This document shows, piece by piece, positions 82-33,191 of a stretch of 33,191 bases of DNA. This stretch comes from Xenococcaceae cyanobacterium MO_167.B27. Lineage in GTDB: Bacteria; Cyanobacteriota; Cyanobacteriia; Cyanobacteriales; Xenococcaceae. Position 1 is the first letter of the stretch. The number at the start of each line of letters is the position of its first letter. The notes below the pieces were generated by a model, which saw nothing but the letters and a program-made list of their open reading frames with translations, did no database searches and was not told where the DNA came from. Both the position numbers and the translations under genes were made by a program. The stretch is taken from NCBI GenBank assembly GCA_030065935.1, contig JASJCP010000041.1, positions 1-33,191 of the forward strand. The letters are read 5' to 3'.

Positions 82-2538
82 ATGAACGAGCAAAAAACAT
101 CATTATTAAGACTTAAATATTATAATAAGCAACAAAAAAAAAGAGCGATATTTACTATTTGCTCGAATAACTATTTACCTTATGTACGAGTATTATTTAA
201 TTCCCTGAAAAAATATCATCCAGAATCAGAATTATTCTTATGTCTAGCAGATAAAAAAGATCATAACTTTCCTTTAAAACTAGATAATATTCAGATAGTA
301 GAAGCAGAGAAACTAAATATTACTAACTTTTTAGACTTTGCTTTTCGTTACGATATTATGGAATTTAATACTGCCTTAAAACCCTTCATGATGCAGTTAT
401 TAATTGAAGAATATAAGTTTGAACAAGTTATTTATTTAGACCCTGATATTGAATTATTTGCTCCAATGGAGTCAGTAGTTTCTGCCCTAGATAATGGTGC
501 AGATTTTGTGATAACTCCTCATATTACTCAACCATCGGAAGGAGACGCATATCCAGGAGATATTGGAGTTATGCAATCTGGAATTTACAATTTAGGATTT
601 ATCGCAGTAAGTAATAGTAAAGACGTAATTAGTTTTATACATTGGTGGGGTAGAAAATTACGTTTTCAATGTGTTAACGATCAGCTAAATGGTATTTTTG
701 TCGATCAAAAATTTATCAATTTACTACCAGCTTTTTATGATAAAGTTAAAATTTTACGAGACACCAATCTTAATGTTGCTTATTGGAATTTAGTTCAGCG
801 CAAACTAGAGAAAAAAGATAACAATTGGTATATTGACGAAAAACCCTTGGTTTTTTTTCACTTTAGCGGTATTAACATTAATAATAATAAACTTCTATCC
901 AAACACACTACAGCTTTTAGCAATAATTTACCTGATGCTTTACAACTCCTCATTAATGACTATATCCAAAAAGTTAAACAAAATAGCTTTGCTGTAAATT
1001 GTGAACCTAAATATTCTTATGGCTATTTTGATAATGGAATTTTTATCCCTCCCATTGCTAGAAAAATATATCGAAACCTAGAAAATATTTGGTTTCCCAA
1101 TCCTTTTGCCAATTTTTATGAATATCTCAATTTATTGCATCATAAATATAAAGATGCTTCTTCTTTTCCCTTAACTAATTTAATGTTGGGATTTTTGGAA
1201 AACACTTCTTGTCTCGATCCCTACTTTAAAATAGATCCAGATTACGATTTAAAAGAATATCCTTACTTTAATATGGATAAAGATTATGATCGAGAAAAAT
1301 ATACTTCTTGGTTTCTCGATCATGCAGAAAAAAATGAAATAGATGATTTTTTTATTGAACCTATTTTAGATAATATTATCCGCAAATTTAGTTATTCTCG
1401 CTCTCCTATATCCCCTACTCGGGCAAACAAATCTCTTGTGAATGTTGTCGGATATTTAAGAACAGAAATAGGAATAGGGCAAGCAGCAAGAATGGTGATT
1501 AAAAGCCTTAATGCAGTTAATATTAGTACCCAAGGCTATCATTTAGATATCTATGACCACTTAGTTCCCCAAAATGATCGTCAGGTAGAAAGTCTAATAG
1601 TTTCTAAAATTTCTGCTCCCATACATATTTATAAATTTAATGCTCAAAGACTAGAGACCATAAAACAAGGAATAAAAAAGGATAGCAATAAACCAGATTT
1701 TGTTATTAATATGCCTGCATGGGAGTTAAGTAAATTTCCTCAAGATTTGGTATCTGGCTATCACGATATAGATGAAGTTTGGGTAGAGTCAAAATTTGTC
1801 CAAAGAGCTTTTCAAGCCAAACTCAATATCCCTGTTTTATGTATGCCACCTGCTATTAATATTGGAAATGTTCCTAATTTGAATCGCGATCATTTTAACT
1901 TACCAAAAGATAAATTTTTGTTTCATTTTAACTTTGATTTCGCTTCTTTCGACCATCGCAAAAATCCTCAAGATATTATTGATGCTTATCGAATGGCTTT
2001 CCGTAAACAATCACATATTCCTACAGCCTTAATAATCAAAACTAGAGGTTTCGATCCAGAAGGTAAAAGTTATCAGAAACTATTAGAAATAATAGATGGA
2101 GAAGACGATATCATTGTTATCAATGATTATTTTCGTCATGGTGAAACTATGGCTTTAATGAATTGTTGTGATAGCTATGTATCTTTACATCGTTCCGAAG
2201 GTTTTGGTTATACGTTAGCAGAGGCTATGTTACTAGGTAAACCAGTAATTGCTACGAATTATTCTGGAAGTCGTGATTTCATCAACCATCAAACAGGTTT
2301 TCCTGTAGATTATAAATTAATTGCTTTAAAACCAGAGGAATATCCTTTTGCAACGGGTCAAAAATGGGCGCAACCTGACTTACATCATGCAGCATGGTTA
2401 ATGAAAAAAATGGTAAATAACTCTCATGAAACTAAACAAATTGCTTTGGCAGGACAAGAGAAAATAGTTATCGATCATTCTCCTATAAATGCTGGTAAAA
2501 GGTATTTAAAAAGATTACAGCAATTAGGTCTGATTTAA
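82..2538 (+). CDS. Dual-domain glycosyltransferase (GT-A/GT8-like N-terminus plus GT4 C-terminus)
   Basis: A cytoplasmic sugar transferase of about 818 aa, probably for surface polysaccharide. The N-terminal third is a GT-A, GT8-like domain with the metal/nucleotide-sugar motif YLDPDIE. The C-terminal half, starting near GYLRTEIGIGQAARMV, is a GT-B GT4-type domain with the glycan-donor segment HRSEGFGYTLAEAMLLGKP. The frame is open from a GTG at 61, but the residues coded by 61-81 come from a GC-rich hairpin and the close paralogue at 13389-15752 starts right before the matching conserved block, so I chose ATG 82. The two paralogues are colinear and share long identical stretches. Two complete transferase folds in one chain suggest two linkages made by one protein, or one catalytic and one accessory domain. 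Acceptor and donor sugars cannot be told from sequence. Confidence 0.85.
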   Translation: MNEQKTSLLRLKYYNKQQKKRAIFTICSNNYLPYVRVLFNSLKKYHPESELFLCLADKKDHNFPLKLDNIQIVEAEKLNITNFLDFAFRYDIMEFNTALKPFMMQLLIEEYKFEQVIYLDPDIELFAPMESVVSALDNGADFVITPHITQPSEGDAYPGDIGVMQSGIYNLGFIAVSNSKDVISFIHWWGRKLRFQCVNDQLNGIFVDQKFINLLPAFYDKVKILRDTNLNVAYWNLVQRKLEKKDNNWYIDEKPLVFFHFSGININNNKLLSKHTTAFSNNLPDALQLLINDYIQKVKQNSFAVNCEPKYSYGYFDNGIFIPPIARKIYRNLENIWFPNPFANFYEYLNLLHHKYKDASSFPLTNLMLGFLENTSCLDPYFKIDPDYDLKEYPYFNMDKDYDREKYTSWFLDHAEKNEIDDFFIEPILDNIIRKFSYSRSPISPTRANKSLVNVVGYLRTEIGIGQAARMVIKSLNAVNISTQGYHLDIYDHLVPQNDRQVESLIVSKISAPIHIYKFNAQRLETIKQGIKKDSNKPDFVINMPAWELSKFPQDLVSGYHDIDEVWVESKFVQRAFQAKLNIPVLCMPPAINIGNVPNLNRDHFNLPKDKFLFHFNFDFASFDHRKNPQDIIDAYRMAFRKQSHIPTALIIKTRGFDPEGKSYQKLLEIIDGEDDIIVINDYFRHGETMALMNCCDSYVSLHRSEGFGYTLAEAMLLGKPVIATNYSGSRDFINHQTGFPVDYKLIALKPEEYPFATGQKWAQPDLHHAAWLMKKMVNNSHETKQIALAGQEKIVIDHSPINAGKRYLKRLQQLGLI

Positions 2539-2607
2539 TCAACAATAGTAACTAATATCTAATTTTTAAGATTTTCACCATCAATACTTTCAGCTATGGA
2601 TGAATAA

Positions 2608-3990
2608 TATTTATCTCTTAGGATAAAATTTAATCGAAAGTCATCTTTACTAACTACTTTTATATTTGCTTTTGCTACCAATACATGGGTAACAAATTCT
2701 CAAGGACTATGGCAACATGGAATATCTAATTTAGCTCTTGTAAGTATTATATTTTGTTTACTAAAAGCCAATCGCACTTCAGAAGAATATCAAAAAAGAT
2801 GGCTGCTATTAGCAGGATTAATTTGTGGATTTCTTCCAGGTATTCGTCCTACAAGCGCATTGTATGCAATTGCAGCGATTTTCTATTCAGTTTTTAGCTA
2901 TCGATTTAATGCTATTTTCTTTCTATGTGGTTTAATTACAGCAATTCCTAGCTTTGTTTGGAATTTATACTACTTTGATAACTTAACTGGGGGTTACTCT
3001 AATGTTTTATCAGGATCAGGATACATTTTTACTCTTAATCACTTTATAACTGCATCTTTAGGAATACTAATTAGTCCTAGTCGAGGGCTTCTTGTATTTT
3101 ATCCTATAGTTTTTTATTCACTTTTTGGAGCTTATCAAGTTTTTAAACATAGATTTTGTAGAGATGAAAAGTTAATAGGATGTATGACTATTGCTTCGAT
3201 ATTGCTACTTCTAAATTATTGTTTCTTTAGAATTTGGTGGGCAGGTCATGTTTATGGACCAAGGTTTATGACTGACATCATGCCTATACTATGTTATTTA
3301 CTTGGTTATTGTATTGCAGGCAATATAATTAGATTATTGCGAGTTAAAAACTTAATTAATATCAAAGTATTACTATTTATAACTTGTCTTATATTTTCCA
3401 CATCTACTCAAATTGCTGGAGCTTTTGGCTTTAATCCTGGTATGTTGTGGAATTCAGTTCCTTTAAATGTTGATATTTATCATCATAGACTATGGACTAT
3501 CAGAGATAGCCAATTAGAAAGATATTTTAGAGCTTTGTTTAATCAAATTATTAAACCAAATTTCAATAATCCTGATTATATCAATGGTCTAGATGGAGTA
3601 ATTAAACAAATTACAGATGAAAATGATCGAGTTATGAACTCAGTAATTTCAGTTCAACCTGGTTCTACACAATTATTTAAAGCGAGTCTTGAAAACAAAG
3701 GTGTATCAAGATGGTTTGGTTATAAAGCAGCTCTTCCGATAGGAGAAATAAAAGTAAGAGGATATTTATTTGATAGGGAAAATAACCAAATCAGAATCAT
3801 AACTCTTTATATTGCTGAAAATCTGAAACAGAATGAATCAACTACTGCTATTGGGTCTATTATTTTCCCCCAAAAACCAGGAAAATATAAACTTGTTTTT
3901 GAGTTGATATCTGAAGGAATTAGTAACTTTCCTAATAGGGATAATAATTTACCATATGTCCTAAATATTAATGTTGTAAATAAAACATAA
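2608..3990 (+). pseudogene. GT-C membrane glycosyltransferase, 5' end missing
   Basis: The frame is open from a stop at 2605-2607 to 3990, yet it has no ATG, GTG or TTG before the TTG/ATG at 2857-2860. Good protein sequence runs well upstream of that ATG: TNTWVTNSQGLWQHG, typical of the region after the first loops of polytopic GT-C (PMT/ArnT-like) enzymes, and GFLPGIRPTSALYAI. So the product beginning at 2860 would be an artefact, and the gene has lost its start, first membrane segments and the acidic catalytic loop. What remains is several membrane helices, a GPRFMTDIMPIL segment, and a C-terminal soluble beta-rich domain (from about VISVQPGSTQLFKASLENKG). It lies 69 bp after the first glycosyltransferase and converges on the methyltransferase at 4021. 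A non-canonical start is conceivable but would still lack the N-terminus. Confidence 0.7.
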
Positions 3991-4020
3991 TAAGGTGATA
4001 CTAAAAAAATATTCTTAAAC

Positions 4021-4827
4021 TTAAAAATCTGAAGTAATTTCTACTGGACTTGAATATTTTCTGCGAGCGACAAAGGATGTAACATCATAGTAAATGCTCT
4101 CTTCTGTTTCTGATTGCTCGCAAAGATGTTTGGATTTAACAACAGATTCTACTTCAAAACCCACTATATTTAACATTCTTTCTATAGATGCTTTGGAAAA
4201 ACACCACCAAGCATCTAGTGGTATAAGGGTATTATTGTTTGGCATTAATCTAACTACACAGTCTTCAGTTTCTTCAGTGACTGGATTAGACAGAATTATA
4301 TAATCTTTGACTAACAAGCTAACTGAAAATAAAGCTTGTATAGGGTCTCTTAAATGAGAAATAATCATTCCCATGACAGCTACATCAAATAATCCTATGT
4401 TTGAAGACAAATTATATATGTCTCCATAGTGACATTTTGCTTGAGATTCTAAAATTCTATGGGAAAACCAATATCCTTTTTTTACTATTTCAGCAGTATT
4501 TATATAATGCTTTCTAGCTTGTTCTAAATTATACTTTGGATTAATATAGGGAACTATATTCCATAATTTTCCGCTTGTAAGATCAAATGACGTTACTTTA
4601 GCTCCTTTACTTTCCATATGAAATGTCAAAAATCCCCCTGCTGTACCAACATCAAGTACAGTTTTTCCTGCAAAATCAAAGTTACCTAGGTATGCTTCAA
4701 TATTTTTCCTCAAATCCCAAGCACCATGAACAGTACCATATCCAGGTAAATCTATAGTGTGGTAAAAATAACATTCATTAATATCTTTAATAAGCCTGGG
4801 AGTTTCAAATAAGGAGGTTTCTGACAT
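4021..4827 (-). CDS. Class I SAM-dependent methyltransferase
   Basis: A 268-aa protein with Rossmann-fold motif I VLDVGTAGGFLTFHM (about residues 57-71) and the acidic end of strand 2 in KVTSFDL (Asp82), followed by FDVAVMGMIISHLRDP, the motif IV/post-motif region. The family methylates small molecules, sugars or wobble uridines; the FLTFHMESKGAKV stretch is like methyltransferases found in glycan gene clusters. Its setting among glycosyltransferases suggests a sugar-modifying role, which is inference. ATG at 4827 has AAGGAG-like bases only inside the gene, so translation start strength is unclear. It converges on the truncated GT-C gene, 30 bp apart. Confidence 0.8.
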   Translation of the reverse strand: MSETSLFETPRLIKDINECYFYHTIDLPGYGTVHGAWDLRKNIEAYLGNFDFAGKTVLDVGTAGGFLTFHMESKGAKVTSFDLTSGKLWNIVPYINPKYNLEQARKHYINTAEIVKKGYWFSHRILESQAKCHYGDIYNLSSNIGLFDVAVMGMIISHLRDPIQALFSVSLLVKDYIILSNPVTEETEDCVVRLMPNNNTLIPLDAWWCFSKASIERMLNIVGFEVESVVKSKHLCEQSETEESIYYDVTSFVARRKYSSPVEITSDF

Positions 4828-4884
4828 AATCTAAATTGTCGGATTTTAAATTAAGGAATAGCTAGTTTTACTAGACTTTGAATA

Positions 4885-30921: not shown

Positions 30922-31119
30922 TCAAAAAGCATAATGATATCCGTCATTTCGATGAATATGAGTCAGATATTTAGGATGAACATCTTTAAGAATAATCGTG
31001 AAAGGATAGCGTCGAAAAACTGATGCTTTCCTTTGCTTTAATAGCAACCTTGCTTGTCCTGGATGAACGGGATTTAAAGGTTGTTTTTTAGTATCTATAA
31101 CAAATACAAAGTTGGACAT
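30922..31119 (-). pseudogene. iscB: Internally deleted IscB (RRXRR/PLMP N-terminus only)
   Basis: A 65-codon frame. Residues 1-45 are the start of IscB, the RNA-guided nuclease ancestral to Cas9: VFVIDTKKQPLNPVHPGQAR holds the PLMP motif as PLNP, and RKASVFRRYPFTIILK the RRXRR region. Full IscB is 400-500 aa with RuvC and HNH domains; all are missing. The last 20 residues (KYLTHIHRNDGYHYAF) resemble the C-terminal end of IscB-type proteins, so a large internal deletion joining both ends is likelier than a simple truncation; this is inferred. The gene cannot cut DNA. The sequence upstream looks like an intact omega-RNA scaffold. Confidence 0.65.
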
Positions 31120-31260
31120 AATTTTTTCCCGTTAGGGGTGATGTTTGCCTCGTTCGGTTATCTAATCTTGTTATGCCTAACTCACTTCTTTAACCCGTTT
31201 ACAGATGTTTAAAATTAGACGACAGTTGCTCTAAGCTGGCACGCACCTAGAGGTGTCATG
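31120..31260 (-). ncRNA. Candidate omega-RNA scaffold of the IscB element
   Basis: In IscB loci the guide RNA scaffold lies directly upstream of iscB. Here the 140 bases before the ATG are less AT-rich than their surroundings and can fold; for example GTTAGG and CCTAAC on the minus strand can pair. There is no coding frame. The position fits, but I cannot compare with a covariance model. Confidence 0.45.
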
Positions 31261-31275
31261 AACTAGATAACGGCT

Positions 31276-31290
31276 ACCAGAATTTCTGGT
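31276..31290. repeat. Palindrome at the outer intron's 3' junction
   Basis: ACCAGAA (31276-31282) and TTCTGGT (31284-31290) form a perfect 7-bp inverted repeat around one base. It spans or abuts the predicted 3' splice site (31289-31292) and may be part of the intron's target site. Confidence 0.5.
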
Positions 31291-31368
31291 GATTAGAGTC
31301 GAGAGGAGTGTTACCACTCGCTCCCTCTCCTCCGAAACCGAGCATGATAGTTTCCCATCACTCGGCTA
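31289..31368 (-). ncRNA. Group II intron domains V and VI (outer intron, 3' end)
   Basis: Domain V (31334-31368) begins AGCCGAGTGATGGGAAACTA on the minus strand: AGC catalytic triad, GGGAAAC loop and a complementary 3' arm (TATCATGCTCGGTTT). Domain VI follows as a GA-rich/CT-rich hairpin with a GTAA loop and an unpaired A near its 3' arm. The 3' end is at CTCTAAT or CTCTAATCAC (both AY). It lies 32 bases after the maturase stop. Confidence 0.85.
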
Positions 31369-31399
31369 CTCAAAATATCTACCTTTGTCATTAGGACAT

Positions 31400-32333
31400 C
31401 TAACTTTTCTTGTTAGAAAGTATTAAGATATCGTTGTCATCCCAGAACCAATCATGTTTGATTAATTCCTTGTTAATGACCTCCAAGTGATTACGGAGTT
31501 TGCGTTCTTTGATGTACTTTAAATCAAGAGAAGTCTTTTCGTCGTGGCAATGTCCATGAAGAAGTTGAAGGTTTTTATAATCATCTCTGCCACCAAGGGC
31601 AAGAGCTAATATATGGTCAACCTCTAGGTTGTCTCCTTCACGGAAGCGCAGGCAGCACCAGGGACATACTCCTCTTTGTTTATTAAGCAAGATTGCTTTT
31701 CGGTGAGGCATATCGGGACTACGTCCCATTCTGGTACTCCAATAAACTAGTTTTCCGTTAAACGGACTATCTTTGCCTTTAACTTTGACATACTTAGTAC
31801 TACTGCTTCCGAACTCAGTATGTTGTAGTAACCGTAGAAGGTTCGCGTCTTCTGACATGGTTGCTTTCGACCCAGTTATTGTTGCCTATTTTCTTCCAAT
31901 ATTTTTTGCGAGCTTTATTGTTTGAGCCAGTCTTTCGACGACCCCAGGCTCTTAGTTTCTGGAAGATTAGGTGGTCTTGCCGTGCAAGTTCTCCCACAGT
32001 CGAAGCATCAGAGTTAGAGTAATAATTTACCCATCCCCTAATAACTGGATTAAGCTTAAGTATTAGTACAGCTTGAGGAGCATTTTTATATTGTTTAATA
32101 ACATCTTTGATTTCTCTTTGATGTTTCTTACAGGCTTCCTTTGAAGGTGTTATGAGTGTTCTAAAACCAAGTGATTTCTTTGTAGTGGGGTGTACAGCAC
32201 TGCTGTATTTACCAACAGGGAATTGTTGGATGTGATGCCCCAAAAAGTCGAAACCAGCTTTGCAATCTTCACTTAATTCAGAGTGAAGTGTATGGGCGAT
32301 TCTGGTCTTTGACGGTTTTAGTTCCAATCCCAT
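31400..32333 (-). pseudogene. ltrA: Outer intron maturase C-terminal half, frameshifted and interrupted
   Basis: The first frame (32333-31815) reads MGLELKPSKTRIAHTLH, which is the reverse-transcriptase thumb/tail start, then GFDFLGHHIQQF and domain X (LNPVIRGWVNYYS). It ends in a nonsense tail after NNWVESNHV. The second frame (31858-31400) continues with LLRLLQHTEFG, VKVKGKDSPFNGKLVYWSTR and an HNH domain (CPWCCLRF, VDHILALALGGRDDYKNL, HGHCHDEKT). A one-base shift near 31850 separates them. The part before GLELKPSKTRI, including the YADD catalytic site, is missing here because the inner intron is inserted at that point. Unless repaired by frameshifting, the product is non-functional. Confidence 0.85.
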
Positions 32334-32412
32334 GAGTAGAGTCGATGGGAGCTATTATGCTCCGCACCTCTCTCTGAAATCTGAGCGTGCAGGTTTCCCC
32401 GCACTCAGCTTC
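32332..32412 (-). ncRNA. Group II intron domains V and VI (inner intron, 3' end)
   Basis: Domain V (about 32377-32410) reads AGCTGAGTGCGGGGAAACCT on the minus strand with complementary arm GCACGCTCAG, giving the AGC triad and GGGAAAC loop. Domain VI is the hairpin around GGAGCATAATAGCTCC followed by CGACTCTACTCAT. The 3' end is CTCTAC or CTCTACTCAT; right after it the outer maturase frame resumes. Domain V starts about 10 bases after the inner maturase stop. Confidence 0.85.
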
Positions 32413-32420
32413 CGAAAACC

Positions 32421-33191
32421 TTAACTTTCGTTTTTGCTCATGTGGACATATTGGTGACAACTTCTGTGAACCGCAAGGAGATTCTGGGTTTTCCAGTTGT
32501 TGTGGTTGCTATCTATATGATGTAACTCTATTCTTTCTCCATCGAGAAATTTTAATCCACAATGTCCGCATGAATGACTTTGTTTTCTAAGTGTTTTTGA
32601 TGTCGCTCCGTCGTATAAGACGCTGTTTCTCTTTGACCAGTAGTTTAAGTCTCCATCAAAAGGTGATTTGTCTCCTTTGACATTGACAAATTTGTTTTCT
32701 GAGTAACTAACGCTTGGGAATGCCTGTTTTACCATCTTTTCTGCTTGATGTTTATTGATGGTTTCCTGTTTAAGAAATACTTTGTAGGTTCTGTTGTTCA
32801 TGTGCCATAAACTGAACCTACTTCCATCCATCTTGCAGTATTTATGATAATTCCTCCACCCCCTGATAATAGGAGCTAATTTTGCTACTTTTGTTTCCGC
32901 GCCATAGTTTGAATTGTTGACGACGTTTTTGACCTTTTTTCGGAACGCTTTGAAGTTATCCTTAGATGGTATGCTTCTAAACTTTCCGTTGTTTTTTTGG
33001 ACATAGAAATGCCATCCGAGGAAGTCAAAACCATCTGTCGAGGCTGTTACTTTCGTCTTCTTCTTACTAACATTCATTCCCCTAGCTGCAAGAAACTCCT
33101 CAACTAATACAAGTAATTTTTCAGCACTATCATTTGGTTTTAAGATAAATACCATGTCATCCGCATATCTTATGCTTTGCCCTAATGATTC
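32421..33191 (-). CDS. ltrA: Group II intron reverse transcriptase/maturase, partial (N-terminus off the window)
   Basis: The frame is open to the window edge and reads ESLGQSIRYADDMVFILKPN, so it starts at the YADD catalytic motif of the reverse transcriptase and the apparent ATG at 33155 is internal. It continues with thumb FLAARGMNVSKKKTKVT, GFDFLGWHFYV, domain X (LAPIIRGWRNYHKYC), then VKGDKSPFDGDLNYWSKR and an HNH endonuclease (CGHCGLKF, ELHHIDSNHNNWKTQNL, HRSCHQYVH). This part is intact, so it could support splicing and retrohoming of the inner intron. Confidence 0.9.
   Translation of the reverse strand, partial: ESLGQSIRYADDMVFILKPNDSAEKLLVLVEEFLAARGMNVSKKKTKVTASTDGFDFLGWHFYVQKNNGKFRSIPSKDNFKAFRKKVKNVVNNSNYGAETKVAKLAPIIRGWRNYHKYCKMDGSRFSLWHMNNRTYKVFLKQETINKHQAEKMVKQAFPSVSYSENKFVNVKGDKSPFDGDLNYWSKRNSVLYDGATSKTLRKQSHSCGHCGLKFLDGERIELHHIDSNHNNWKTQNLLAVHRSCHQYVHMSKNES

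Follow-up and report, generated by a model that had tools for sequence, protein, structure and literature searches.

Two group II introns at the end of the contig

The window (the whole stretch of DNA analysed, 33,191 nucleotides) is the entire contig C190 (JASJCP010000041.1) of Xenococcaceae cyanobacterium MO_167.B27, and its right end, position 33191, is the end of the contig. The genome assembly of 7.02 Mb is divided into 282 contigs and is 98.55% complete. At least 29 matches to the Rfam group II D5/D6 model were found in it at E ≤ 1 (150 of 305 candidates scored), 28 of them exceeding the curated cut-off, together with 41 HEARO matches at E ≤ 0.01, of which 28 were above the cut-off. Parts of two group II introns adjoin each other at the right end, on the minus strand like all window features described below; the families of the inner and outer introns are referred to as type I and type O, respectively.

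The inner intron is represented by its 3' part (32335..33191), which is cut by the contig end and has a 96% copy on contig C201 and a 78% copy on C60, the latter with an open frame of 533 codons. The 5' end expected of such an intron (GUGCG) and domains I-IV would lie outside the contig. By ORF and Pfam analyses, it encodes the C-terminal 256 residues of a maturase (32421..33191): the RT end with YADD, the X domain, and an HNH-like end. The frame is open from 33191 to 32421 and runs past the contig edge, with the N-terminal half off the contig; RVT_1 (end only) and GIIM were above the Pfam cut-offs, and HNH was just under it (20.9 vs 21.4 bits). Domains V and VI (32335..32413), identified by fold and by Rfam RF00029 (55 bits; model span 32336-32413), end in CGACTCTACT. 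The dN/dS values of this maturase were 0.135 against C201 and 0.065 against C60, the latter with saturated dS. Since the copy on C201, the only close one, is 5'-truncated, that in the window could also be 5'-truncated. The truncated maturase on C201 (8378-9520; L050) lies in a single open frame of 381 codons whose upstream part is TnpB-like (by eye).

As described in the earlier note, this maturase C-terminus and its domains V and VI directly precede a second maturase that lacks its earlier part and ends in domains V and VI of its own. The second maturase past the junction (31869..32334) consists of the RT end and X domain, with 92% identity to residues 349-503 of a type-O maturase on C155 and a GIIM match of 58.9 bits. 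Its HNH endonuclease region (31400..31864; ATG at 31858) shows 86% identity to C155 residues 505-658 and an HNH match of 43.8 bits, and is in another frame because of an extra base relative to C155 at 31868, a position good to a few bases in the alignment; the frame entered at the junction stops at 31815. GIIM and HNH were accordingly found in two frames. Homology begins at residue 349 of the 658-residue C155 frame, the N-terminal half of the RT is absent from the window, and no match to outer-type sequence was found upstream of the junction within it. The outer domains V and VI (31292..31370; Rfam RF00029, 53 bits) end in CGACTCTAAT. Type O has two relatives in the genome: that on C155 (88%) has a 658-codon frame and D5/D6, and that on C169 (83%) has a 628-codon frame whose end differs after approximately codon 609, and no D5/D6 on C169 was matched in the Rfam search.

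The dN/dS values of the outer maturase against C155 (Nei-Gojobori method, custom script) were 0.085 for 31869-32333 and 0.171 beyond the frameshift; therefore, both parts appear to have been under constraint until lately, which suggests that type O was functional until recently. The extra base near 31868 may be a sequencing error, and the portion comprising RT and X might remain usable as a splicing maturase.

The outer intron is followed by a 3' exon (31138..31291) that belongs to a HEARO (omega) RNA, of which it forms the 3' portion. The Rfam RF02033 match scored 83.3 bits, barely above the cut-off of 83, with the first ~60-70 model positions falling on the intron. An intact HEARO on C174 can be aligned with the window beginning at the splice site (91% over 192 bases), and the outer intron therefore sits within a HEARO RNA. 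An ORF at 30922..31119 resembles by eye the N- and C-terminal ends of a 448-residue ORF on C174 joined together, with the middle lost; we take both ORFs to be IscB-like. Thus at 30922-31343 the interrupted HEARO adjoins the two-ended IscB-like remnant, and the intact pair is present on C174 (L149, L201).

The junction between the introns

The inner intron's 3' end and the outer maturase meet at 32334..32335, where the latter continues with the final base of a Gly codon (GG^C ATG GGA), so that the inner intron directly abuts an internal site of the outer one. C155 and C169 are uninterrupted across this point (TGGCTAAATGGCATGGGATTAGAACTA and TGGTTAAATGGCATGGGACTAGAACTA, respectively; both reading ...AAATGGCATGGG), and the window reads ...CGACTCTACTCATGGGATTGGAACTA. 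Homology between the window and C155 starts at 32334, the C of CATGGG; among the O-type rows listed in a family search, 19 of 28 started at this base and 7 one base later, the remaining 2 starting elsewhere (our count). The earlier note had placed the start of the second sequence at GLELKPSKTRI; the start is indeed in mid-gene, although four bases earlier (C ATG GGA TTG).

The inner 3' end was placed at 32335 (CTACT), whereas the Rfam model for D5/D6 stops one base earlier (CTAC, 32336). The copy on C201 cannot by itself fix the end because its match continues through CTACTCA and it therefore shares two bases after CTACT with the window. The shorter end was rejected on three grounds. A pyrimidine followed CTAC in all 20 distinct type-I 3' ends among the loci examined, the window's included; these were picked by a pattern itself written from type-I ends. 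In genome G172, two identical 2183-base type-I units (zero differences) stand head to tail with CTACC abutting GTGCG (L236, C2:68500-74500, 492-4857). Finally, when folded with ends at 32335 and 31292, the two D6 were alike, with three-base tails of ACU (inner) and AAU (outer). With CTAC as the end, the frame could still be preserved with a different codon before ATG.

Provided that the upstream outer exon resembles C155, removal of the inner intron would restore AAT GGC ATG GGA. The earlier proposal that this removal restores the outer maturase thus applies to its RT and X part, but not to HNH, before which the frame is broken by the extra base near 31868.

A pattern scan of genome contigs gave no match to the junction elsewhere. 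In the 27 genomes of the family, the window's was the only one among the rows listed to cross the junction by more than 4 bases. Among the matches listed for 388 genomes of the order, with at most two candidates scored in each, the junction was not found, which is a weak negative; in the 3' flanks of ten matches running past it, no maturase gene was present, three (G306 twice and G131) showed D5-like sequence of another intron by eye, and one was the tandem of G172. None of 32 plasmid records covered 80% of the query in one place; the plasmid matches were, by sequence, cyanobacterial (Nostoc, Aulosira, Dolichospermum, and others).

The insertion of one intron into the maturase gene of the other is well supported because the junction sits where C155 and C169 run through without interruption, as precise reverse splicing would leave it. 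Truncated and tandem copies do exist in this genome (that on C201 fused to a TnpB-like N-terminus, an internally deleted one on C267, and a double D5/D6 on C65), and two adjacent truncated introns that were never nested might look similar; nevertheless, chance would hardly make one intron end exactly where the other is continuous in both relatives, and we regard this as very improbable. An assembly chimera of the two introns would fit with a window terminating in a repeat family and an assembly of 282 contigs, but a k-mer mis-join needs a long sequence common to both introns at the junction, and none was seen by eye; this explanation is, if anything, more improbable still. In circularly permuted group II introns, domain I is placed after domain VI. 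This type of rearrangement (PMC8637638) was dropped because nothing at the locus has domain I after domain VI.

With the two 3' ends, the 3' junction, the uninterrupted type-O relatives, and the frameshift demonstrated, the locus is, in our judgement, quite probably the 3' half of a bacterial group II twintron, whose outer 5' half would lie beyond the contig. An ORF-bearing type O would first have inserted into the HEARO RNA of an IscB-like element, and an ORF-bearing type I would later have retrohomed into the O maturase gene between the second and third bases of the Gly codon, two residues before GLELKPSKT and approximately 25 residues past YADD. The O 5' half and RT N-terminus are predicted upstream of the type-I 5' end: beyond the contig, the type-I 5' end GTGCGATTC would be preceded by the O RT N-terminus ending in ...TGGCTAAATGG or similar, and further upstream the O 5' end GTGCGATTC would follow a HEARO 5' half whose last bases resemble ...TGACCAGT(T). 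Type I would be the first to splice, using the maturase that it encodes and restoring AAT GGC ATG GGA, and O could then splice with an RT and X protein without HNH or with a maturase from an intact O copy such as that on C155.

The missing 5' half and other nests

The earlier note had proposed nested introns, one inserted in the maturase gene of the other. While the insertion is borne out by the 3' junction compared with C155 and C169, only the 3' half is present, and the outer N-terminus was not found in the assembly. In the genome, a search with the RVT_1 profile (19 matches; 25 of 25 candidates scored) gave O-type N-termini on C155 and C169 only; the same two were the only ones in a DNA search with type O (at least 46 matches; 40 of 86 candidates scored) and in one with its ORF part alone (at least 26 matches; 40 of 46 scored), where the next rows covering more than 80 bases were at 73% or less. 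The predicted 5' junction pattern, with one mismatch allowed, was found in none of the 27 family genomes, including this one. Searching this genome with the type-I 5' region did not yield the missing half, and the HEARO 5' half of C174 gave no partner, its matches on C235 and C50 having no intron there. C22 was dropped as a 5' partner because its flank is without the HEARO empty-site ending, and a shared TTAAATGTCA was set aside because the sequence preceding GTCA varies among HEARO copies.

In this assembly, contig ends fall within intron repeats (the last 139 bases are common to C84 and C22, and the first 139 to C172 and C107), and the shortest of its contigs among the loci examined is 6023 bases; a short piece bounded by repeats, such as a 1-kb N-terminus, may therefore be absent from the assembly. 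An O contig reaching unique flanking sequence should have been assembled; that none was found suggests an N-terminus either flanked by repeats at both ends or no longer existing. For this reason, we regard a full twintron as quite probable and not more than that.

The N-terminus may instead have been lost if the introns were nested once and two type-I copies in a single O, one ahead of the ORF (as on C84 and C22) and one at the window's site, recombined and deleted the RT half, leaving a dead chimera. No orphan O N-terminus was found in the assembly searches, and the O-type 5' halves on C84 and C22 stop at a type-I 5' end in the same place, both of which speak for such a loss. However, the 5' exon of C84 is a type-I maturase and not HEARO, and the 5' flank of C22 is without the ...TGACCAGT(T) of the empty site on C174, so that neither is a clean partner; moreover, a repeat-bounded N-terminus of 1 kb could merely be missing from the assembly. 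We therefore consider the deletion unlikely, although less so than the two explanations discussed for the junction, and prefer a full twintron continuing beyond the contig.

Further nests were each seen from one side only; those on C84 and C22 and in genome G007 show comparable insertions and thereby favour nesting in the window as well. On C84 (L056, C84:1-1461, minus strand), a type-O 5' end interrupts a type-I RT gene after LDIKKC; the gene has 68% identity to residues 26-208 of C60, and the type-O part matches C169 at 598 of 714 and C155 at 623 of 721 aligned bases. In turn, a type-I 5' end (121 of 135 bases matching C60) interrupts this type O upstream of its ORF, and there the contig ends. 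The locus on C84 thus consists of three layers, represented by their 5' sides only, and its type O in type I is the reverse of the order in the window; C22 carries the same type-I-in-O junction ahead of the ORF. At the ends of C172, C107, and C118 (L180, L181, and L182), the 3' end of a third intron type is followed by D6-like sequence of a host intron, which on C172 matches type O of the window over 40 of 40 bases and on C107 and C118 was recognised by eye. The 3' exon of the host intron on C107 resembles another reverse transcriptase gene (RYVDDF, by eye). An O-type maturase in genome G007 is interrupted at KTAGVDG by the third intron type (C121; L136, first ~420 bases of the reverse complement); beyond the 3' end of that intron, the O-type frame remains open for 553 codons. 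In genome G306, D5-like sequence of another intron (recognised by eye) lies downstream of a tandem pair of type-I introns. Type-I-like introns followed by an apparent D5 3' strand of another group II intron were also seen by eye at L233 (G306:C36), L234 (G306:C143), and L244 (G131:C35). On C65 (9401-12100; L138), an internally deleted maturase and its D5/D6 precede another maturase C-terminus, which likewise has D5/D6 of its own.

Tentatively, types I and O may each target the reverse transcriptase gene of the other, I cutting the RT of O in the window and O cutting that of I on C84; we find this possible, but doubtful. If true, C84 would represent I in O in I, with I also cutting O ahead of its ORF (C84 and C22), and each intron would need the removal of the other before its own maturase is made, a stacked mutual dependence with an IscB-type guide RNA as the outermost host in the window.

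Relation to known twintrons

Bacterial twintrons, also inside a maturase gene, have already been described in cyanobacteria (Thermosynechococcus and Trichodesmium), and the principle is known. The present locus is an ordinary kind of nested mobile intron, real and well explained, with some unusual company; it is particular in that the insertion lies in the RT gene beyond YADD, the inner intron carries an ORF, and the host is a HEARO RNA.

In Thermosynechococcus elongatus, TeI4a-e with TeI3a-e similarly place one group II intron in the maturase (RT) ORF of another and are described as spreading by entering introns (PMC2882425). According to the same account, the inner introns are ORF-less and inserted right at the beginning of the outer maturase ORF, between two start codons, making the outer protein possible without splicing (PMC2882425). 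In contrast, the inner intron of the window is ORF-bearing and interrupts the RT gene past YADD. The twintron of Trichodesmium erythraeum Tery_4732 also consists of two ORF-bearing group II introns in a cyanobacterium, and its sequential splicing has been reported (PMC4649490). Its host intron starts with GUGCGAUUC, as do the type-I and type-O copies here; however, as described there, the inner intron is in domain I of the host intron, which interrupts a protein gene (PMC4649490), whereas that in the window is in the outer maturase gene, with the outer intron in a HEARO RNA. The mat1f twintrons of the Porphyridium plastid likewise have an ORF-bearing inner intron within remnants of the outer maturase gene, but are eukaryotic, and their outer maturase is described as already largely deleted (PMC4476101). 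Nests in Methanosarcina acetivorans also arose from group II introns repeatedly entering group II introns, but form archaeal arrays of up to five introns, as summarised in a review (PMC4424553). The pipeline of PMC8919778 is described as missing the outer intron of twintrons.

With this locus, the cyanobacterial examples come to include an ORF-bearing intron that interrupts the maturase gene of another intron in its RT part. Since this part is cut, splicing of the outer intron should need either splicing of the inner one or a maturase supplied in trans from intact copies in the cell. Judging by the neighbouring nests, group II introns here appear to use each other as landing sites.
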